A DNA stretch of 24,379 nt. It comes from a virus. Numbering within the stretch: the stretch's first letter is position 1; each line of letters opens with the position of its first letter. The DNA lies in the IMG/VR virus record IMGVR_UViG_3300025264_000112, positions 1 through 24,379 of that record; one strand, written 5' to 3'. A program made the translations under genes and the position numbers. Under the pieces are notes generated by a model that ran no database searches, was not told the origin of the DNA, and saw only the letters and a list, made by a program, of their open reading frames with translations. Below are positions 9,639-21,259 of this stretch, in pieces.

Positions 9639-10316
9639 ATGGTCGCTTATTCGTATTTGAAGGCGGACCTGATCAACTCGTCTGAGAATGACTCCACTGA
9701 TTTTGAGGCTCAGATTCCTTATTTTGTGGAGAAGGCAGAGTTACGTCTAACCAAGGATTTGGATGATGTCGGGCTAGATGAATATTCTTCAATAACTCTG
9801 ACTGCCGGTACTGCCACTGTTAGTCTGAATGATCGAGTTCGTATTGTACGCAATGTGAACTATACTACCAGTGCGTCCAGCATCAAGACAAATCTTCTTC
9901 AAAGAACAATAGAATATGCGAATGATTACTGGCCTGTCAGTGCATCCACAGGTACACCCAGATATTATTCCAGAAAAAATAATTCATCTATTTTTGTTGT
10001 TCCTACCCCAGCATCTACCTTGACTGGGGAAATCCAAACAGTTTCTCGTCCGCTTGCTCTTGCTTCCGCAACGGGTACAAGTGTGACAACCAGTAATTAT
10101 TTCAGTGAATATTGTTATGATGCCCTTTTCTATGCTTCCATGATTGAGGCAACCATGTACATGAAAGATTGGAATACATTACAAACATGGCAACAACAAT
10201 ATCAGGTTGCCGTGGATACACTTCGTAATCAGGCTCGCAGGACCAGACAGGACGATATGGCCGTGGCAGCAAGTCCAGCGGGTGGTCCAGACACACTAAT
10301 ACAGGGAGGAAGTTAA
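9639..10316 (+). CDS. Head-tail adaptor protein, SU10-type
   Basis: 225 residues; expected to form the ring attached below the portal. Visible features of this family are the N-terminal YSYLKADLINSSENDSTDFE, the helix with PYFVEKAELRLTKDLD, a central beta part ending in GTPRYYSRKNNSSIFVVPTP, and a long C-terminal helical segment (FYASMIEATMYMKDWNTLQT, then QYQVAVDTLRNQARRTRQDD). An in-frame TTG lies at 9609 inside the preceding gene; ATG 9639 is chosen because it follows the preceding stop. The gene ends in TAATG, overlapping the next start by one base. Assignment is by pattern and place in the order, without alignment. Confidence 0.8.
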   Translation: MVAYSYLKADLINSSENDSTDFEAQIPYFVEKAELRLTKDLDDVGLDEYSSITLTAGTATVSLNDRVRIVRNVNYTTSASSIKTNLLQRTIEYANDYWPVSASTGTPRYYSRKNNSSIFVVPTPASTLTGEIQTVSRPLALASATGTSVTTSNYFSEYCYDALFYASMIEATMYMKDWNTLQTWQQQYQVAVDTLRNQARRTRQDDMAVAASPAGGPDTLIQGGS

Positions 10317-10957
10317 TGGCAGCATGGTTAATACCAGTAGGTGTTGGCGCTTCAGCAGTAGCTAAAACACCAATAAGATATTTAGTTAAATGGATAACCC
10401 CAACTGGAAAGACAGCAACTAAATCAGTAGGAAGTAAAGAGGCTGGCATTAAAGCTCTAGGACAGAAAGGTTTTAAACCTAGTGATATTAAAGTAGAAAC
10501 AGGTAAGGGTGTTAGAGCCAAGGGAGCGGAACCAAAAAAGACTAAGTCATCTGGAAGGTGGGAAAAATTTAGAAAGCATGGAAGTCAGGTCGAAGGATCA
10601 GAAAAGGCTAGAGCAGAAGATGGAGGTAAGACTATGAAAAAGCAACACGGTGGTATGACTCATGTTGGTTTGTATCCTGCTGAAGAACGTGGAGAGGATA
10701 TATCAAGATCAACTGGTACTTTATCCCAGGCTAAACGAAAACGATATATGAATAAGGGTGGTATAGTAGGTGATAAGAAGCAGGGCTATAAGGCTCGTAA
10801 AGATGAGTCGATTGCCGAGAGAGTGAAGAAGAAGCGTACCAAGAAACAGCTTGTGGCCAGTCGAGATGAGTCTTATGGTAAGTGGGGTAAGGGTAAAGGT
10901 AAGGGTAAGATTAATCAAACTGATGGTAATAAGCTTGTAGCTTCTCTCTATGATTAA
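10316..10957 (+). CDS. Basic hypothetical protein with C-terminal GNKLVASLYD tag
   Basis: 213 residues with high Lys and Gly content, function unknown. The short N-terminal part (RYLVKWITPTGKTATKSVG, then EAGIKALGQKGFKPSDIKVE) looks like a small folded domain; the rest is low complexity with RKHGSQVEGSEKARAEDGGK and MNKGGIVGDKK. The last residues GNKLVASLYD recur almost exactly at the end of the next gene, though the rest of the two proteins differs. GGGAGGA precedes the ATG, which overlaps the adaptor stop. It could be a DNA-binding or ejected virion protein; this is inferred from charge and neighbours. Confidence 0.72.
   Translation: MAAWLIPVGVGASAVAKTPIRYLVKWITPTGKTATKSVGSKEAGIKALGQKGFKPSDIKVETGKGVRAKGAEPKKTKSSGRWEKFRKHGSQVEGSEKARAEDGGKTMKKQHGGMTHVGLYPAEERGEDISRSTGTLSQAKRKRYMNKGGIVGDKKQGYKARKDESIAERVKKKRTKKQLVASRDESYGKWGKGKGKGKINQTDGNKLVASLYD
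10923..10957 (+). repeat. Copy 1 of a 35-base repeat encoding a shared C-terminal tag
   Basis: Matches 11475-11509 at 32 of 35 bases, including the stop codon. Two differences are silent and one changes Leu to Phe. Confidence 0.85.
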
Positions 10958-10981: not shown

Positions 10982-11509
10982 ATGTATTTACAAACAGGTT
11001 CAAAAATTTTTAATCTTTTAGGTGGCCGTGCAGCAGCAAAGAAAGCATATGAGATGATTAAAAATTATATGGGTAGTGATGTTAGGGTAATTTCAAAGCC
11101 TACCACAGCTCAAAAAAAAGCCGCAACAGAATTATCCTCTTCTCGTAGTCACGCTGTACAAACTCTACGAAAAGTAGGGGAAGAGGCACAAGGACAAAGG
11201 AATATTAAGTATTGGGATAGAATTATAAATCCTCCTAAACAAACTAAAGGTATAAAAACACAATCAGGTGAAAGAGGAGAAGGTTTAACAGAAGCACAAA
11301 AGGCTGCACGTAGTAGAGCAAGTCAACAACAATTTCTGAAGGCAGAGAGACCTGCTCGTCAGAGGCAAGAAGGAATACAATCTGCAAGGGAGAAGAGACG
11401 TTGGGCAGAAAGAGATGCTGAAAGAAACAAAGGTGGTCAAGTAGGTAATAAGAAGAGTTCTAATAATCATGCAAATGGTAACAAGTTTGTAGCTTCTCTT
11501 TATGATTAA
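10982..11509 (+). CDS. Basic helical hypothetical protein with C-terminal GNKFVASLYD tag
   Basis: 175 residues, rich in Arg, Lys, Gln, Ala and Glu; no family recognised. The N-terminus (YLQTGSKIFNLLGGRAAAKK) may form an amphipathic helix. Residues about 95-150 (EAQKAARSRASQQQFLKAER, then QSAREKRRWAERDAERNKGG) are highly charged helix. The tail NKGGQVGNKK followed by GNKFVASLYD parallels the preceding protein. AAAGGAG at 10968-10974 is seven bases before the ATG, an excellent site. By neighbours it may be an internal or ejected virion protein. Confidence 0.72.
   Translation: MYLQTGSKIFNLLGGRAAAKKAYEMIKNYMGSDVRVISKPTTAQKKAATELSSSRSHAVQTLRKVGEEAQGQRNIKYWDRIINPPKQTKGIKTQSGERGEGLTEAQKAARSRASQQQFLKAERPARQRQEGIQSAREKRRWAERDAERNKGGQVGNKKSSNNHANGNKFVASLYD
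11475..11509 (+). repeat. Copy 2 of the 35-base C-terminal tag repeat
   Basis: Second copy of the stretch at 10923-10957; see that entry. Both copies end in TATGATTAA, so the ATG at 11502 inside this copy may be a by-product of the repeat and not a true start. Confidence 0.85.
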
Positions 11510-12941: not shown

Positions 12942-14930
12942 ATGGCCTATCCAAAACTAACTCCACAAAATGCTAAAGAAAGGGCTTTTATACGTTCTAT
13001 TCAAGATGGAGAGGTAGGACATTTACCTAAAAGTAAGTGGGGTCTTGCTGTTAGCCCTGATGGCGCTAAAGGACCAATGCAAATAATGCCCAAAACTTAT
13101 AAAGACGTTATGGGTAGTATGAAGGGTTGGGATAATCCTAAAAAATTAGAAGAGGCTGGAATAACATATGCTCTAACACAGTATAGAGCTTTTGATGGTA
13201 ATGTTAGACGAGCGGCAGGAGCTTATGTAAGAGGTCCGTCAGATGAAAGAAAGAGAAAACCTCTGGGAGATAGATCAAAGTATTATGTTAATAGAGTTAA
13301 TACCACATACAAGACACTAATGGCTGATACTTCAGGTCAACCAGTGGCTAGACCAACAAAAAGGGAAACATCTCAAATGGCAACAGATAAATGGAAAACA
13401 CATCCATTGTATAGGCAATGGGTAAAAGCCAATAAATTAGATCGGACCAAGGCAGAGGGACAACGAAGGGATCTCTATAATCAGGCCAGAAGAGCTGTAA
13501 ATGAGGAAAATAAATTAAAAAAGAGAGGCATTATTATTCCACCTCGTATAGCTAATTCTGCTTCGGCTGGTAGACAGATAGTAAAGGCTTATGAGGCTAA
13601 ACCGCCCACAGCGGCTGAGATAGCAGGAATGGCAAAGGGCGTTGTTGACTACTGGACATATGCTACACTACCAGCATCTATAGGAGGAATTGTATCTCTT
13701 GGTAGAGGAGCTTACAGATTATTTAATGCAGCCGGTAAACAATTTGGAAAAGTATTTAAAAGTAAGGCGGCGGCTCTGGAAGCAGGGAGAAAGGCAAAAC
13801 CACCTCCAAGTGCTGCTCCTCCACAACCACCAAGAATTGCTAGTCCAGACAGAGGGTTTTTTGGTAGGCCGATACAAAAAGCAAAAGATCAACCTAGAGT
13901 AAGGGCAGCAGAAAAAGTTAAACAACAAAAAGAAAAGGCAAGAGCTGCCAGAGAGGCACGTGAAGCAAGAGAAAGAGCCGAAAATGAACGGATACTGGAA
14001 CTTAGTCGTGGACCAACACCACCTCCAGTACCTCGACCACCTCCAAAGACACCAACGAGAACTGCTCGTCCAGGCGAAGGTCTTTATGGTGGGACAACAA
14101 CACAAGCATCAAAGACACAGCCACGGCCAGCACCAAGGCCACAGTCAAGGCCAAATGGAAAGCCAAAGCCACAGCCGAAGCCGAAGAAACGGCTGAATAA
14201 ACTGGCAAAGGCACACCCTGTTCTAGGAACAGCAGCGGTATCGCTGGCATTAGGTATTCCCGCTGCTTTTATTACTAAAGAACTAATGGATAGATATAAG
14301 GTAAATCCTGAAAGTGCTCAACGAAAGGCTAATCAGATAAAGAAACAAATAAATCAGGTTAATAATAAACTTCCAGATAATGCAAGAAAAGTGACGACAC
14401 CACAAAATTTAGAAACACTACAAAAACGTTATGGACTTCATTCATCACAAACAGGACCGATAAAGAAGGTTAAAAAAGTAAAAGATTCATATGATTTTGG
14501 AGCTACACCACCTATATTTGAAAGTAAAGTCCCAACAAATCAAAAAGTAAAGGATACGAAAAAACCGGGTTGGCTTCCTTGGGATTGGATAAAGAAATCT
14601 GGACCAGATACTAGCGCCCCAGCAAAACGAGTATATATAGCTCCATTTGGAGAAGTGACTGTAGGAGAAGATCCAGAGGAGACAGCTCGAAAAGAGAGAG
14701 TATTTCAAGAAACTAACTATAAAAGGGGTGGTCAGGTTAGAAAGGGTCCGAAGAAAACTAAAGCTCGCAGGGTTAAAACAAAACCACTAACATTAAAACA
14801 AAGAAGTGCTTTGAAACAGCATTCTCAGAAACATACATCAAAACATATGATATATATGCGTGATCGTATGAAGCAGGGAGATACTTTCAAAGATGCTCAT
14901 CGAAAAGCTACAAGAAGGGTAGGCAGATAA
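12942..14930 (+). CDS. Lytic transglycosylase-like virion protein fused to a basic C-terminal domain
   Basis: 662 residues. The N-terminal 130 resemble an SLT-type lytic transglycosylase, which cuts peptidoglycan: EVG with likely catalytic Glu24, AVSPDGAKGPMQIMPKTY, AGAYVRGP and YYVNRVNTTYK. Next come a basic helical region, a moderately hydrophobic stretch (226-258), long Pro/Lys/Arg-rich linkers with two similar segments (RIASPDRGFFG and RTARPGEGLYG), and a likely membrane segment (about 424-441, VLGTAAVSLALGIPAAFI). The end has a GGQV motif and a basic domain, LKQRSALKQHSQKHTSKHMI and GDTFKDAHRKATRRVG, which I recognise as a separate small protein in many viruses. This build suggests a protein that is packaged, ejected and opens the cell wall during DNA entry, comparable in role to T7 gp16. 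The function is inferred. Confidence 0.75.
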   Translation: MAYPKLTPQNAKERAFIRSIQDGEVGHLPKSKWGLAVSPDGAKGPMQIMPKTYKDVMGSMKGWDNPKKLEEAGITYALTQYRAFDGNVRRAAGAYVRGPSDERKRKPLGDRSKYYVNRVNTTYKTLMADTSGQPVARPTKRETSQMATDKWKTHPLYRQWVKANKLDRTKAEGQRRDLYNQARRAVNEENKLKKRGIIIPPRIANSASAGRQIVKAYEAKPPTAAEIAGMAKGVVDYWTYATLPASIGGIVSLGRGAYRLFNAAGKQFGKVFKSKAAALEAGRKAKPPPSAAPPQPPRIASPDRGFFGRPIQKAKDQPRVRAAEKVKQQKEKARAAREAREARERAENERILELSRGPTPPPVPRPPPKTPTRTARPGEGLYGGTTTQASKTQPRPAPRPQSRPNGKPKPQPKPKKRLNKLAKAHPVLGTAAVSLALGIPAAFITKELMDRYKVNPESAQRKANQIKKQINQVNNKLPDNARKVTTPQNLETLQKRYGLHSSQTGPIKKVKKVKDSYDFGATPPIFESKVPTNQKVKDTKKPGWLPWDWIKKSGPDTSAPAKRVYIAPFGEVTVGEDPEETARKERVFQETNYKRGGQVRKGPKKTKARRVKTKPLTLKQRSALKQHSQKHTSKHMIYMRDRMKQGDTFKDAHRKATRRVGR

Positions 14931-15016
14931 TGACAGATAAATCCTGTTCTGGATGTAAGTGCGATTGCCACTGTGATAAAGAAAAATGTGAGAATTGTAA
15001 ATGCGGAAGTGAGTAA
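14930..15016 (+). CDS. 28-residue cysteine-rich peptide, metallothionein-like
   Basis: Eight of 28 residues are Cys (6, 9, 11, 13, 15, 20, 23, 25), plus His14 and no aromatic residue. The spacing gives one CxxC followed by four CxC-type steps, then a second cluster with CxxC and CxC, the pattern of metallothioneins that bind Zn, Cu or Cd through thiolates. The ATG overlaps the previous stop by one base (TAATG), and its own stop overlaps the next ATG in the same way, just as in the neighbouring genes; AGG at 14921-14923 is six bases upstream. This fit on both sides makes chance unlikely. It is far shorter than usual bacterial metallothioneins (about 50-60 residues). A disulfide- or zinc-stabilised structural peptide is the alternative. 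Confidence 0.7.
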   Translation: MTDKSCSGCKCDCHCDKEKCENCKCGSE

Positions 15017-15690
15017 TGGCAGTTTCGTCTACATATAATTTTAACCTTGATATAGATGAGGTTATACAAGAAGCAATGGAAATGATCGGAGGGGAAGATA
15101 CTCTAGGTCATGAGCCAGCTTCTGCTCGACGTTCAATTAATCTCATGCTCAAGGACTGGCAAAATAGAGGTATTCTTCTGTGGAGTACTTCTGTTTCCAG
15201 TGTAACTGTGGCTGCAAGTGTTACCGCATATAGTCTGGATTCCTCAACTGTGGACGCTCTGGAAGTTGTTCTAGGTCGAGACGACACAGACATACAACTT
15301 ACTCGTATATCTCCAGAGGAATATCTTCTTATTCCAAATAAAACCCAGACAGGCCGACCTATGCAATACTCTATTCGGAGAGGTATGGCCAATCCTACCA
15401 TGTCTGTCTGGCCTATTCCTGAGAATTCCACGGATGTTCTTAAAATAGAGGTTATTAGCGAATTAATGGATGTAGATAAATCTGCTGGACAAAATGCAGA
15501 TATGCCAAAGAGATTCCTTCCACCTCTTACGTGTGGACTATCTTATTACATGTCAATGAAACGTCCTGGTGTTCCTCCTGAAAGGATATCGATGCTGAAA
15601 ACTAATTATGAAGAGATATTGTTCAGAGCTATGCAGGAGGATCGAGAAAGAGCTTCCATGCGTGTTGTACCCAGATTAGGATATATCTAA
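15016..15690 (+). CDS. Neck protein, P22 gp4-like (packaged-DNA stabilisation)
   Basis: 224 residues, expected to form the ring below the portal or adaptor that closes the head. Features typical of this family: an N-terminal helical part with LDIDEVIQEAMEMIGGED and RRSINLMLKDWQNRGILLWS, a central beta region with DALEVVLGRDDTDIQLTRIS and RPMQYSIRRGMANPTMSVWP, then the PPLTCGLSYYMSMKRPGVPP helix and a basic end (RERASMRVVPRLGYI). In P22, gp4 follows the coat protein and is the first neck protein added. It overlaps its neighbours by one base at each end. Assignment is from pattern and order, so a second adaptor role is the alternative. Confidence 0.78.
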   Translation: MAVSSTYNFNLDIDEVIQEAMEMIGGEDTLGHEPASARRSINLMLKDWQNRGILLWSTSVSSVTVAASVTAYSLDSSTVDALEVVLGRDDTDIQLTRISPEEYLLIPNKTQTGRPMQYSIRRGMANPTMSVWPIPENSTDVLKIEVISELMDVDKSAGQNADMPKRFLPPLTCGLSYYMSMKRPGVPPERISMLKTNYEEILFRAMQEDRERASMRVVPRLGYI

Positions 15691-16016
15691 TGGCAAGTAA
15701 TAGAAATGCTCTGGCTGTATGTGATACATGTGGATTTGTATATCCACACAGAGTAATGCAGATGAATAGTTACGGTATGCTGGTTTGTCCGCAAGACTTT
15801 GAAGGTCAGTACGATCTGAAGAACAGTCCTTTAAATAAGATACCGGATGTACGAGATAATCCAGCAATTTTGAATCCAAGACCCGATTATTTGGGGGGAC
15901 GAGGAGTTATGTGGAATAAGAGTAAAACATGGATAACAACTAATCCTGTAACCTTGGCAGAAACAACGCATACTACCAAATGGGATGATGCTAACAGAAG
16001 TTGGAACACAATATGA
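15690..16016 (+). CDS. Small phage protein with CxxC motif
   Basis: 108 residues. The N-terminal part has Cys11 and Cys14 (CDTCGFVYP) and Cys33 in LVCPQDFEGQYDLKN. Three Cys could bind zinc with one more ligand, such as His20, or the motif may be a remnant of a zinc ribbon. I recall similar proteins beside gp4-like genes in marine phages, without known function. The C-terminal half is polar with several Trp. The ATG overlaps the previous stop (TAATG) and the stop overlaps the next ATG (ATGA), so it is translated in the same coupled chain. Confidence 0.75.
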   Translation: MASNRNALAVCDTCGFVYPHRVMQMNSYGMLVCPQDFEGQYDLKNSPLNKIPDVRDNPAILNPRPDYLGGRGVMWNKSKTWITTNPVTLAETTHTTKWDDANRSWNTI

Positions 16017-19000
16017 CAGATCTAACAGGTAATTTAATATCAGAAACATATAAGCAAGTTCTGCTTATCAATGCCAGTACTACCAATAGTGGTGTTGATA
16101 CCTCTCTGGTGAATGTACAGACAGGAGATGGAACTAATAGTGCTTTGCAAGTTGCAACTAATGCAGTGAAGGTTGCTGGTACGTTTGCAGTATCCGGAGC
16201 GGTTTCACTGGATGGTAATATGCATGTGGATGACAAGGTATGTGCCTCGGCATTCTACGGAGATGGCTCTAATATTACTGGAGTGACTGCCACGATTGCA
16301 GGTAACATCTCTGTGAGTAATGTAACAATTGGTGGGACTTTACATGTTGCTGGTATTGCCACATTAGCTGGTGCTACGCATCTTAAGAGTACGGTCACAG
16401 TAGGTGGTGCAGCTAACTTTGGTAGTACAGTTACCGTGGTAGGTGCTGCTCATCTGCAAAGCACAGCTTCCATAGGTGGAGCCGCCACGTTTGCCAGCAC
16501 AGTCACGGTTGTGGGAGCAGCCGCACTAAAAAGTAATGTATCTGTTGGGGGTACTCTGGCAGTAGCCGGAGCAGGTACATTCACATCCAAGGCAGAATTC
16601 AAGGACGATGTATCAATTAGTGGTAATTTAGATGTAGCTTCTGCTGCATGTATAGGTGGCACTTTCATGGCAGTTGGAAATGCTACTTTCGATGGGGATG
16701 TCTCTGTAAGCGGTGGTCTGGTAGTTGGTGGTACGGTAACTATTGTAGGAACTAATGTACAAGCTGCTAATGCCAGAGTATGTGCATCTGCATTCCACGG
16801 GGATGGTTCTAATTTAACTAATATAGCTGGCTCGGCGATCTCAGGTAATATCTCTGTTAGTAATATCAGTGCGGGAGGTGATCTCAATGTAGCTGGTGGA
16901 GCTTCCATAGTAGGTACTGTGACAATAGTCGGAGCTAATCTACAAGCTACCAATGCCAAGGTATGTGCGTCTGCATACTATGGTGATGGTTCTAATCTTA
17001 CTGGAGTTGTGGCGTCTATTACAAGTGGTGTTATAGCTAATTTATCTATAACTTCCAATTTAGATGTTGGAGGTAATACTTCCATAGGTGGTACTTTTAA
17101 ATCTACAGGAGCAGGTACATTTGCATCCACGGTTACAGTTGTAGGTGCTGGTACATTTAAAGATGATGTATCAGTTAGTGGTAATACTGTTCTTGGTGGA
17201 ACATTAAGAGTTGCAGGAGCAACCTCTCTTGAAGGTGCAGTTGATCTTAATAGCACACTTACTGTAGCAGGAGCAGTATCACTTGCATCAACACTATCAG
17301 TTGGAGGTGCTTCACACTTTGCTTCTACAGTTACTGTAGCAGGAGCCTCTCACCTTCAAAGTACAGTATCTATTGGAGGTGCTGCTACATTTGCTTCGAC
17401 AGTTACTGTAGCAGGAGCAGCTATATTTGAAGACAGTGTTTCTGTTAGTGGTAATTTAGATGTTGCTGGTAATGTATCAGTAGGTGGAACTGTCTTTGCT
17501 GCTGGTGGTATTACATACGATGGAGATGTTTCTGTTAGTGGTAATCTGGCTGTGGGAGGTAATACTTCCATAGGAGGGACACTTAGTGTTACAGGAGCGG
17601 TAAGCCTAGCTTCTACTCTTAGTGTTGGAGGTGCTGCTTCATTTTCTTCAACAGTTGCAGTGGGAGGTACTACAAATCTACTAGCAGATGTTTTAATCTC
17701 AGGAGATGCTGTCGCTGCTGGTACTTTCCAACCTCAAGGTGATACTGCCTCTGGAGATGATGCAGCTATAGGATACACATCTGGGGAAGGTCTTATTCTT
17801 ACAGGACAGGGAAGTACCTCAGATATTACACTAAAGAATGATGCCGATGGTACGGTATTCACGGTTCCAACTGGTACTGATGATATTCTTTTCCCCGATA
17901 GTGCCAAAGCTATGTGGGGAGCTGGTAGTGATCTTCAAATTTATCACGACGGCTCCAATAGCTATATTGATGATTCTGGTAGTGGTCTGTTACATATAAG
18001 AGGAAGCCAGATTAATATTAATAAGTACACTGGCGAAAACATGGCAACATTAGTTGCAGATGGTGCTGTTACACTTTATTATGATAATAGTGCAAAACTT
18101 GCTACAGCATCTGGTGGTGTAGATGTAACAGGAGATTTAACTGCTACTGGAACTATTGAACCTGCTGGAGATACAGCCGCTGGAGATAATGCTGCTATAG
18201 GTTATACTAGTAGTGAAGGCCTTATCCTAGCTGGTCAAGGCAGTACAGGTGATGTCACTATAAAGAATGATGCTGACACTAATATATGTTATGTTCCCAC
18301 TGGAACAAATTATCTGCGCTTTACCGATAGCAGATATTTATCGTTTGGCGATTCCGATGATCTTCAAATTTATCACAATGGTACTGATAGTTATATTACG
18401 GATGTAGGCACAGGCGTTCTTAAAATTACATCTGATGGTGGCTCAATTAGTTTCCAAAAGAGTAATAGTGAAGTTATGGCAACAATGGCAACAGATGGTG
18501 CTGTTACACTTTATAATGATAATGCTATAAAACTTGCTACAGCCTCTACTGGCATAGAAGTAGGAGCATCAGGTGTAAATGCTACTATTAAGACTCACAG
18601 TGCTGGAAGTAGTAATTTAACATTGGGTGTTAATGCAGGTAATACTATCGAATCAGGTGGTAATTATAATACCTTGGTAGGCGACGAAGCTGGCACGGCT
18701 ATCACAACAGGCGATAATAATGTTGCTGTGGGTTATGGAGCCTTGGATGCTGGCACGACGGCATCTTACATCACAGCAATTGGTTATAATGCTCTTGGTG
18801 CTAATACGACGGCTAATAACTGTGTAGCGGTTGGTAATACTGCTCTTGCTGCGAATACGACAGGAGCACATAATGTAGGGATTGGTCATCAAGCCCTTAA
18901 TGCAAATACTACGGCTGCGAATAATGTGGCTGTTGGTAAAAATGCTTTACTTTTAAATACCACCGGATATTCCAACGTAATGGTAGGGACAGATGCTGGC

Positions 19001-21259
19001 GATGCCATAACTACGGGACCACTTAATGTGGGAGTGGGCCATAACGCATTAGGTACAGTCGTAACGGGCCAAGAAAATACGGGTATTGGGTATAACGCCC
19101 TATCTCTAACAACTGTTTCAGACAACACAGGTATTGGAGCTTATGCTGGTGATGCTCTGACAACCGGAGCTAACAACACCTGCGTGGGAGCTTACTCTCT
19201 TAGTGCGGCTACTACCGGCGCTTCAAATGTGATGGTTGGGGCTTGGGCAGGAGATGTTCTTACTACAGGATCAGATAATACTGGTATCGGCATACATTCT
19301 CTTGGTGCTTTAACGACTGCTGGCTCTAACACAGCGGTAGGCGCTAGTGCCGGGATAAATACAACTACCGGCGATTCAAATACATCGCTTGGTGCAAGTG
19401 CGTTTGCAGCAAATACAACCGGAGCATCGAATGTTGCCGTAGGTGTTCAGGCTCTTGATGCCAACACGACGGCTGCTGGTAACACCGCTCTGGGCTACCA
19501 AGCTATGAGTGCAAATACGACCGGAACAGGTAATGTTGCGGTGGGTTATCAAGCTCTGGATGCCGTCACAACGACATCTGGGCATACTGCTGTAGGATAT
19601 TCTGCTCTTGGCGCAGCAACCGACAGTGGCAATACCGCCGTTGGTTATCTTGCTTGTCGTGACACTGCTGGGGGCGCTTATAACGTAGCTGTGGGTCACG
19701 AAGCTCTACTAGTAAATACAAGCGGGGTGTACAATGTTGCCGTAGGTAATGGTTCTCTTGATGCTAATACTTCGGGAGGTAATAACACTGCTGTAGGCCG
19801 TCTTGCTCTAAGTGCAAATACAACGGCTTCTGATAATGTTGCCGTAGGATCTACTGCTCTTGATGCCAATACAACGGCTTCTTATAACACAGCAGTAGGC
19901 AGTTCTGCATTAAGTGCAACCCAGACCGGCGCTCAAAATACCGCCGTAGGCACATATGCTCTACAAAATGCCCTTGAGGACAATAATACAGCAGTTGGCT
20001 ACGCAGCAATGCAGAACTGCACTACCGGCGAGTATAATACAGCCGTGGGACATGCGGCTCTTGATGCAACTGTAACTAGCGACTACAACAATGCATTTGG
20101 TGTTAGTTCGTTAACCACTCTTACAAGCGGGGCAAACAATAATGCTTTTGGTTCTTCTGCTGGTCAGGCATTAACAACTGGCGGGAGTAATGCATTCTTT
20201 GGCGGAGGTGCTGGGTACACTCAAACTACAGCAGGTTCCTGTGCATTCTTCGGGCATAATGCTGGGTATTATAATAATGGGGCTAATAATAGTGCTTTTG
20301 GGGCTACTGCTGGAGATGCCATTACTACAGGAACTCTTAATGTTGCCGTAGGCGCTACTGCTCTGACTGCCAATACAACGGCTTCTTATAACACAGCAGT
20401 GGGCTATGGTGCTATGGCGGCAAATACGACGGGAACATTCAATACAGCAGTGGGTTATGGTGCTCTGGATGCTTGCACTACAACAAGTCAGAATACTGCT
20501 GTTGGGTACAATGCTATGGGTGCATGTACTGGATCTGGAAATGTTGCCGTTGGTGATCAGGCTATGCTTGTTGCTGTTGCCGCAAGTTATAATGTAGCTG
20601 TGGGTGATCATGCAGGAGATTCCATTACAGACGGCACAGGCAATCAATTACTGAGTTATTATGCTGGCGCTGGCATTACAACTGGTGATTATAACGTCTG
20701 TATTGGATATAATTCCGGAACGCATAGTGTAGCCACGACCACTGGATCAGGAAATGTGTTCATCGGCAATGGCGCACATTCTTCTGCTGTTGGTGTGAGC
20801 AATGAAATGGTTATTGCTTCTAGTGCGAATATTCAAGGTAAGGGTGCTAGCACTGGTTTCATAAATGCTAACACTGGTGGCAATTATGCCGGTAATAACT
20901 CAGCCGATTGGTCAACAAACTCCGATAGACGAATTAAAAAGAACATCGTTGATAGTCCAAAAGGACTTGCTGAGATCCTCACGGTCGTTCCGAAGAACTT
21001 CCTCTATAAGAGCGATGAAGAACTTCAAGAAGATTTCCCCGGTGCTCAAGAGGGTCTGCCGCAAGATGTTTTGACAACGAGTGCCATTGCACAGGAGTTG
21101 CAAGAAGCATTCCCGGAAGCAGTCACCGAACGGAGTGATCATGGAATATTATCGGTAGATCGTGGCCCTGTGGTTTGGGCAATGATTAATGCAATAAAAG
21201 AACTATCCGCTGAAATTGATGAACTGAAGAAATGGAAAGAAGAACACACTAGTAAATAA
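16013..21259 (+). CDS. Giant tail fibre with YadA-like repeats and S74 chaperone
   Basis: 1748 residues, probable receptor-binding fibre, presumably trimeric. Regions in order: N-terminal anchor (1-40); short beta repeats with three KVCASAFYGDGSN-type modules and many STVTVxGA units (about 60-565); a tandem pair of 143-residue modules (570-712 and 713-855) with DLQIYHDGSNSYI and MATLxADGAVTLY; some 40 repeats of the kind NTAVGxxALxANTT (about 876-1610), as in the heads of trimeric autotransporters (YadA, Hep_Hag); and a C-terminal S74 intramolecular chaperone (1637-1748). The last begins SDRRIKKNI and is expected to cleave itself before Ser1637 by a Ser/Lys pair (Lys1642), with IAQELQEAFPEAV following. 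ATG 16013 is chosen within the ATGA overlap with the previous gene; an upstream in-frame TTG is ignored. Confidence 0.92.
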   Translation: MTDLTGNLISETYKQVLLINASTTNSGVDTSLVNVQTGDGTNSALQVATNAVKVAGTFAVSGAVSLDGNMHVDDKVCASAFYGDGSNITGVTATIAGNISVSNVTIGGTLHVAGIATLAGATHLKSTVTVGGAANFGSTVTVVGAAHLQSTASIGGAATFASTVTVVGAAALKSNVSVGGTLAVAGAGTFTSKAEFKDDVSISGNLDVASAACIGGTFMAVGNATFDGDVSVSGGLVVGGTVTIVGTNVQAANARVCASAFHGDGSNLTNIAGSAISGNISVSNISAGGDLNVAGGASIVGTVTIVGANLQATNAKVCASAYYGDGSNLTGVVASITSGVIANLSITSNLDVGGNTSIGGTFKSTGAGTFASTVTVVGAGTFKDDVSVSGNTVLGGTLRVAGATSLEGAVDLNSTLTVAGAVSLASTLSVGGASHFASTVTVAGASHLQSTVSIGGAATFASTVTVAGAAIFEDSVSVSGNLDVAGNVSVGGTVFAAGGITYDGDVSVSGNLAVGGNTSIGGTLSVTGAVSLASTLSVGGAASFSSTVAVGGTTNLLADVLISGDAVAAGTFQPQGDTASGDDAAIGYTSGEGLILTGQGSTSDITLKNDADGTVFTVPTGTDDILFPDSAKAMWGAGSDLQIYHDGSNSYIDDSGSGLLHIRGSQININKYTGENMATLVADGAVTLYYDNSAKLATASGGVDVTGDLTATGTIEPAGDTAAGDNAAIGYTSSEGLILAGQGSTGDVTIKNDADTNICYVPTGTNYLRFTDSRYLSFGDSDDLQIYHNGTDSYITDVGTGVLKITSDGGSISFQKSNSEVMATMATDGAVTLYNDNAIKLATASTGIEVGASGVNATIKTHSAGSSNLTLGVNAGNTIESGGNYNTLVGDEAGTAITTGDNNVAVGYGALDAGTTASYITAIGYNALGANTTANNCVAVGNTALAANTTGAHNVGIGHQALNANTTAANNVAVGKNALLLNTTGYSNVMVGTDAGDAITTGPLNVGVGHNALGTVVTGQENTGIGYNALSLTTVSDNTGIGAYAGDALTTGANNTCVGAYSLSAATTGASNVMVGAWAGDVLTTGSDNTGIGIHSLGALTTAGSNTAVGASAGINTTTGDSNTSLGASAFAANTTGASNVAVGVQALDANTTAAGNTALGYQAMSANTTGTGNVAVGYQALDAVTTTSGHTAVGYSALGAATDSGNTAVGYLACRDTAGGAYNVAVGHEALLVNTSGVYNVAVGNGSLDANTSGGNNTAVGRLALSANTTASDNVAVGSTALDANTTASYNTAVGSSALSATQTGAQNTAVGTYALQNALEDNNTAVGYAAMQNCTTGEYNTAVGHAALDATVTSDYNNAFGVSSLTTLTSGANNNAFGSSAGQALTTGGSNAFFGGGAGYTQTTAGSCAFFGHNAGYYNNGANNSAFGATAGDAITTGTLNVAVGATALTANTTASYNTAVGYGAMAANTTGTFNTAVGYGALDACTTTSQNTAVGYNAMGACTGSGNVAVGDQAMLVAVAASYNVAVGDHAGDSITDGTGNQLLSYYAGAGITTGDYNVCIGYNSGTHSVATTTGSGNVFIGNGAHSSAVGVSNEMVIASSANIQGKGASTGFINANTGGNYAGNNSADWSTNSDRRIKKNIVDSPKGLAEILTVVPKNFLYKSDEELQEDFPGAQEGLPQDVLTTSAIAQELQEAFPEAVTERSDHGILSVDRGPVVWAMINAIKELSAEIDELKKWKEEHTSK
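16238..16282 (+). repeat. Fibre module VCASAF-GDGSN, copy 1
   Basis: 45-base coding module (VCASAFYGDGSNITG). Related copies of the same length lie at 16778-16822, 16961-17005 and, in the second fibre gene, at 22745-22789. The first 14 bases here are identical to those of the copy at 22745. Confidence 0.85.
16778..16822 (+). repeat. Fibre module VCASAF-GDGSN, copy 2
   Basis: Encodes VCASAFHGDGSNLTN. It is followed, as in copy 1, by a GNISVSN segment. Confidence 0.85.
16961..17005 (+). repeat. Fibre module VCASAF-GDGSN, copy 3
   Basis: Encodes VCASAYYGDGSNLTG. It is 183 bases after copy 2, while copies 1 and 2 are 540 bases apart. Confidence 0.85.
17720..18577 (+). repeat. Diverged 429-bp tandem duplication in the fibre gene
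   Basis: Two modules of exactly 143 codons (17720-18148 and 18149-18577). Aligned landmarks are GYTSxEGLIL, the GQGST segment, DLQIYH and DGAVTLY; each is 429 bases from its partner. The copies have diverged mostly in the middle of each module. Confidence 0.85.
18640..20850 (+). repeat. YadA-head-like repeat array in the fibre gene
   Basis: About 40 imperfect repeats of some 14-19 codons centred on NTAVG/NVAVG and ALxANTT. The array includes long exact DNA matches, the clearest being 33 bases shared by 19864-19896 and 20368-20400. The repeats are coding; no separate element is implied. Confidence 0.85.

Follow-up and report, generated by a model that had tools for sequence, protein, structure and literature searches.

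What does a frame of only 28 codons, rich in cysteine and wedged between virion genes, do in a phage genome? The question arises in the window that we analyzed, the entire 24,379-base record of a virus (GC 43%). Its plus strand carries at 14930-15016 an ATG-to-TAA frame with the product MTDKSCSGCKCDCHCDKEKCENCKCGSE, which has eight Cys, one His and no aromatic residue; start, stop, frame and sequence agree with the earlier note that drew attention to it. The frame and its surroundings comprise the following features.

12942..14930, plus strand: upstream 662-aa gene with a transglycosylase (SLT) domain; phrog_31838 matches its 46 C-terminal residues
14912..14919, plus strand: possible ribosome-binding site AAGAAGGG, within the end of the upstream gene, as suggested by reading the sequence
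14930..15016, plus strand: metallothionein-like 28-aa gene; evidence from its sequence, a peptide at 25/107 adaptor sites, and pN<pS in 189/190 long-form pairs
14945..14977, plus strand: core motif C-x2-C-x-C-x-C-H-C-D, common to a wider phage family
15005..15009, plus strand: GGAAG in the last codons of the peptide, a possible ribosome-binding site for the adaptor gene, likewise read from the sequence
15016..15690, plus strand: downstream SU10-type adaptor gene (PF24175, E 1e-8), the anchor for finding relatives
15690..16016, plus strand: three-Cys protein, present independently of the peptide

The ATG at 14930 overlaps the TAA of the 662-aa gene (14928-14930) by one base, and the TAA at 15014-15016 overlaps the adaptor gene's ATG at 15016 to the same extent. 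The window contains a single ATG ORF of 20-45 aa that has at least eight Cys and at least 25% Cys, and none of 400 dinucleotide-preserving shuffles of the window gives any; the motif C..C.C.CHCD likewise occurs once in the window and in none of 100 shuffles. The 28-residue, eight-Cys gene is real, conserved and beyond chance.

Relatives were sought through the adaptor gene. Three adaptor searches of viral contigs, each represented by the best 80 of about 600, were pooled with loci from further searches into 107 distinct sites, the window's own included. A Cys-rich peptide ends at the adaptor start at 25 of these sites and is absent from 82 (counts under differing grouping were 24/107, 28/113 and 25/107). 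When the stop was allowed to lie up to about 20 bases from the adaptor start, all 24 positives were found at the exact overlap. The peptides are 19, 28, 32-33 or 41 aa long, with 5, 8, 9-10 and 10 Cys, respectively; a 15-base unit, present twice in tandem in locus L001 and missing from the window form, alters the Cys number among them. The strict motif CxCxCHCDKE was found in 29 viral stretches (including L004, L010 and L067), in all 29 directly before the adaptor start.

The earlier note had pointed out the one-base overlaps at both ends. Both are present in the window; the start overlap, however, is not conserved, being absent in L009 and L020, and at 77 of the 82 peptide-less sites another upstream frame makes the identical one-base overlap with the adaptor. 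The latter overlap is therefore a property of the slot and not of the peptide, and we rejected TAATG as evidence for the peptide gene. At 64 of the 82 peptide-less sites the frame before the adaptor belongs to one unrelated family; the remaining sites fall into frame groups of 6, 4, 2, 2, 2 and 1, and one has no ORF. On a quick adaptor tree built under a simple model, the label of peptide presence or absence needs at least five changes, compared with 22 in shuffles, and three of these changes are forced by well-supported branches. The variety of families that fill the slot and the changes on the tree together point to an exchangeable slot with optional cargo. Absence from so many adaptor sites also marks the peptide gene as dispensable, and a profile search of six peptide-less records of 56-59 kb found no copy elsewhere in any of them. 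A further proposal, that the peptide supplies metal to the three-Cys protein at 15690-16016, was rejected: where 1000 or more bases follow downstream, that protein is found at all 77 peptide-less sites (76 of them with the full set of three Cys) and at 22 of the 24 peptide-bearing sites.

Several other elements were observed around the slot and elsewhere in the window. The L031 group has two further Cys-rich small ORFs before the adaptor (L031 3656-3799 and 3537-3677), one containing MCNNEECSNSHCTCDPCICRIENLCECC and the other MITCKNCGYDSHCG...CKYCRCGKC; one of the two has a weak profile match (E 0.002) and so probably represents another type of Cys-rich peptide close to this slot. The C-terminal 46 residues of the upstream protein (window 14787-14924, HSQKHTSKHM...FKDAHRKA) match the 51-aa phrog_31838, and stretches like them occur as small ORFs of their own in L011 and L199 and, in L030, in a different frame; this end of the protein is a movable His-rich domain. 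In L009 (3861-4001) the start of the His-rich domain is continued without a frame change by the Cys-rich peptide, whose Cys part is preserved, as if the two had been joined by a deletion. The adjacent proteins at window 10316-10957 and 10982-11509 have a common C-terminal motif, GNK(L/F)VASLYD, perhaps a sorting or assembly tag, and window 16001-21259 holds a 1752-aa repeat-rich frame whose end, we presume, resembles an endosialidase chaperone domain.

The peptides found before the adaptor are part of a wider viral family. The looser motif C..C.C.CHCD occurs in at least 120 viral stretches, which include at least 104 new loci; by eye, 97 of 104 encode short Cys-rich proteins and seven look like chance frames (L243, L247, L262 and L304 among the first 71, of which 67 were kept, and L313, L317 and L325 among L311-L343). 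A second half, C.C..C.[CH], lies outside the search pattern and follows the core after a linker of variable length; it is present in 56 of the first 60 distinct peptides, compared with a mean of 0.19 in shuffles, and in 78 of 89 distinct peptides over all of the at least 104 loci. Eleven distinct peptides are without it: the three chance-like L313, L317 and L325, four that meet a contig end (L256, L287, L330, L331), and four that differ (L272, L291, L318, L324). From this material we assembled a family profile of 49 rows, 42 of them hand-picked from 56 Met-starting distinct peptides and seven linked to the adaptor. The window peptide fits the family pattern, with the core C..C.C.CHCD and a short second half C..C.C (profile E 3.2e-6, the window being itself a profile row).

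Only L284 among the 104 looser-motif loci precedes an adaptor. Gene neighbors vary among the 67 loci compared, with either a DNA polymerase gene and a protein matching phrog_3704, whose label 'ferredoxin' we leave aside, or portal and GroES-like genes. Some members have conserved tails (ECESCQ, DMSFENE), and the N-termini of L297, L261 and the HTVC023P copy are hydrophobic or amphipathic. A plain scan for Cys-rich frames was too noisy and was repeated after removal of frames overlapping large ORFs, a filter that also lost known members such as L009, L020 and L067; it returned 19 distinct peptides, of which 15 belong to the family, three (of two kinds) to the L031 group, and one (L124) is a stray. 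A bacterial origin was considered and, on the two patterns searched, rejected: the peptide pattern gave 63 stretches in genome_contigs, none of them confirmed, and the strict motif gave a single one, L236, without an ATG start, which by our estimate is about what chance would yield.

Degenerate forms are found in cultured SAR11 phages, where they are annotated as hypothetical or not at all. The 49-member profile finds one copy per genome in Gjalp (7e-14), HTVC041P (3e-11) and KM23-C739 (3e-9), none of them profile rows; among 14 further records it matches the window and L284 (both rows), HTVC023P (4.3e-4) and the L031 record (0.002), and nothing in the other 10. The expectation that so small a gene would be missed by annotation is borne out, as the copies in HTVC023P, HTVC041P and KM23-C739 are unannotated, three out of five among the named phage records that carry one. 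In Gjalp, Eyrgjafa, HTVC041P and KM23-C739 the related ORF lies between scaffold and capsid genes. Gjalp_gp42 and Eyrgjafa_gp_29 have the core spacing and second half of the phage family, but are 54 aa long, have His in place of one core Cys and Lys after CHC, and occupy this site in T7-like phages. In HTVC041P (OR420753.1, 17811-17960) the member has no ATG before the core, which could reflect a non-ATG start or a frame fault. The frame in HTVC023P (MN698239.1, 28783-29178) has hydrophobic stretches and carries its Cys/His core at the end; the frame, whose start is putative, shares sequence with the end of gp44, an annotated purM-like gene.

The pelagiphages were pointed to by weak tblastn matches of two longer members (best E 0.02 and 0.08). 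BLAST of window DNA 14000-16100 against cultured phages gave no match, that of the 33-aa form and the 32-aa L299 peptide gave none either, perhaps because of low-complexity masking, and that of L264 gave matches at E 1 or worse only. HTVC033P and HTVC103P were rejected as carriers, the match being confined to a non-Cys tail and the profile finding no copy. Because the tblastn matches are weak by themselves, the relatedness of the pelagiphage copies rests on profile and pattern, and convergence of Cys-rich peptides may lie behind the likeness. The label 'marine' for the family comes from the named relatives. The nearest phage records of the window's terminase are HTVC027P, 023Pt_psg01, DSL-LC04 and HTVC023P, at 38-40% identity, and two of the four are pelagiphages. 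The GC content of cultured pelagiphages is given as 31.5-32.7% in the accessible part of PMC8163748; with its 43%, the window virus may or may not share the host of these phages.

Is it the peptide itself that selection maintains? The earlier note would have been refuted by a lack of conservation of the frame or of its Cys spacing in close relatives; both are conserved. Among 20 long forms adjoining the adaptor, all distinct in DNA and aligned by codon, pN is below pS in 189 of 190 pairs, with a median ratio of 0.38 (the ORFs are short, and the pairs not independent of each other), and the Cys spacing persists in peptides as little as 43% identical to that of the window. Seven columns hold Cys in all 20 forms, and TGT and TGC alternate at most of these columns; the His of CHC is also fixed in all 20, with both CAT and CAC in use, and the spacer residues vary. 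Nineteen of the 20 retain the Asp after CHC, and the last Glu is fixed, which may be due in part to the ribosome-binding site of the adaptor. The conserved residues are thus the presumed metal ligands and the spacers are free, as judged in the adaptor-anchored set and at positions 27-34 of the 49-row alignment (positions 4-14 are fixed by the search pattern itself in its 42 pattern-found rows). Ligand positions also swap Cys for His: column 34 is Cys in 37 and His in 12 of the 49 rows, a swap that depends on the alignment, since the His of the 41-aa forms meets column 34 in the 49-row alignment only and falls in an insert column of the 20-row alignment, where four of the 20 rows then have Val at the last Cys column. 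L200 has His at a Cys column of the long-form alignment, and the third core Cys is His in Gjalp, Eyrgjafa, HTVC041P and HTVC023P. This exchange favors metal coordination over a disulfide or redox role.

Likeness to metallothioneins, which the earlier note had proposed, holds in composition, in conservation confined to ligands, and in the absence of a predicted fold. The peptides are small and high in Cys, arranged in CxC and CxxC arrays (C-x2-C-x-C-x-C-H-C and C-x2-C-x-C), and have few or no aromatic residues: none in the window form, one Trp in the 41-aa forms, and Tyr, Phe or Trp in many wider members. From the 49-row alignment AlphaFold2 predicted no fold with confidence (mean pLDDT 55), which may weakly favor a fold that depends on metal. 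Searches of the 49 members against Pfam, PHROGs and NCBIfam returned stray single-member matches only (PF12749 at 0.014, TIGR00372 at 0.0032, phrog_11927 at 0.0031, phrog_19517 at 0.091 and phrog_23502 at 0.094). No PHROG profile matches across the core; the three PHROG families match one member each, with a best E of 0.0031, and the phrog_11927 match is limited to residues 2-15 of L264. The SmtA/BmtA family PF02069 matched the Synechococcus elongatus genome used as a positive control, and it matched neither the window's record nor, at E<=0.1, any of the 49 members. The peptides have no convincing match to any metallothionein family, a sequence search of the PDB gave no matching chain, and comparison with zinc ribbons and knuckles gave no good-scoring match.

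How close, then, do known metallothioneins come? One of the 49 members scores E 0.014 against the eukaryotic family PF12749, but this is a lone weak match of the kind that Cys-rich composition can give, and we did not accept membership. MymT of Mycobacterium tuberculosis is small and Cys-rich like the phage peptide, and we take the two to resemble each other in motif style. The accessible part of PMC7387436 describes MymT as a copper metallothionein crucial for copper detoxification, and the PflQ2 MT of Pseudomonas as binding zinc in a Zn3Cys9His cluster. Like the SmtA/BmtA type, to which PflQ2 MT belongs, the phage peptides are short and Cys-rich and have His ligands, and the core shared by the full-length phage forms, nine Cys and one His, equals the ligand set reported there for PflQ2 MT (PMC7387436); they differ in having no PF02069 match (E<=1), and the window form has 28 aa and eight Cys. 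In the accessible part of PMC3974807, metallothionein is a row in a table of bacterial genes. As far as can be judged, the phage peptide is metallothionein-like, yet it falls into no family tested.

The explanation that we favor, with a modest lean, is a stand-alone thiolate-cluster peptide that would act late in infection as a buffer or scavenger of Zn(II) or Cu(I). The phage gene would yield a free-standing metallothionein-like peptide whose eight Cys and one His (C-x2-C-x-C-x-C-H-C-D, then C-x2-C-x-C) could wrap a small Zn(II) or Cu(I) metal-thiolate cluster. Because the gene lies among virion genes, the peptide is presumably made late; it would then buffer or scavenge soft metal ions freed or taken up in the dying cell and so shield phage and host enzymes and thiols until lysis. 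That spacers are free, that the Cys number varies, that the gene is optional and that it occurs at several places in the genome all suit a metal buffer acting in trans more than a fixed structural component. Against the buffer stand the 19-aa form, whose five Cys are few for a cluster, and the Asp after CHC, the conserved tails and some of the N-termini, which hint at a partner or a membrane site.

The latter features would suit a zinc-stabilized mini-domain, in which the metal is structural and the peptide binds a host or phage partner such as a polymerase, nuclease, membrane or assembly factor. Retention of the Asp in nearly all long forms, the conserved tails and the hydrophobic N-terminal extensions all speak for it, and a structural zinc site predicts Cys/His exchange equally well. 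However, the residues between the ligands are little conserved, the core is followed by a linker of variable length and the 15-base repeat shifts the Cys number, neither a fold nor a good ribbon or knuckle match was obtained, and the window form has no aromatic residue. We consider the mini-domain rather unlikely, and the metal buffer remains our preferred reading.

The earlier note had also offered a thiol-rich virion peptide. Made together with the adaptor by translational coupling, the product would be a virion component or an assembly peptide, as the exact one-base coupling, the placement of every viral strict-motif copy directly before the adaptor start, and the T7-like pelagiphage relative between scaffold and capsid genes would suggest. 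This idea has lost ground: the family occurs in several unrelated gene neighborhoods, although some of these are virion gene clusters. Moreover, most sites with the same adaptor do without the peptide, the six longer peptide-less records hold no copy anywhere, unrelated genes in the slot show the same coupling, and a single looser-motif locus of 104 precedes an adaptor, many lying near a DNA polymerase gene. A virion role is accordingly improbable. Still less credit can be given to a leader or spacer ORF whose translation merely hands ribosomes to the adaptor gene; GGAAG in the last codons and the stop overlapping the next start are what it predicts, but selection acts on the identity of Cys and His, unrelated genes also fill the slot, and most members elsewhere do not precede an adaptor, which makes it very unlikely. 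An untranslated chance ORF, for which the shortness of the frame and the unannotated relatives in some records might be cited, is hardly credible against the shuffles, the pN<pS bias and the retained Cys spacing.

We thus describe a family of tiny Cys-rich phage proteins that probably bind metal and are apparently uncatalogued. With members of about 19-73 residues and a biased composition, the family is nearly invisible to annotation. Among the matches listed in the open-licence, partial literature that we searched, we found no paper on a phage metallothionein, and cataloguing among the small phage genes of Fremin 2022 is possible; phage control of metal looks little explored in that literature. 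Here gene callers overlook phage genes of a kind that recurs, as the three named records with unannotated copies illustrate. A family found in SAR11 phages and at more than 100 uncultured loci, and kept by selection mainly for its presumed metal ligands, would allow phage control of zinc or copper to be tested with phage-host pairs already available, namely HTCC1062 with Gjalp, Eyrgjafa or HTVC023P. Tentatively, and at somewhat less than even confidence, phages of the sea, those of SAR11 among them, may carry an uncatalogued and widely exchanged metallothionein family that would control the zinc or copper of the infected cell.
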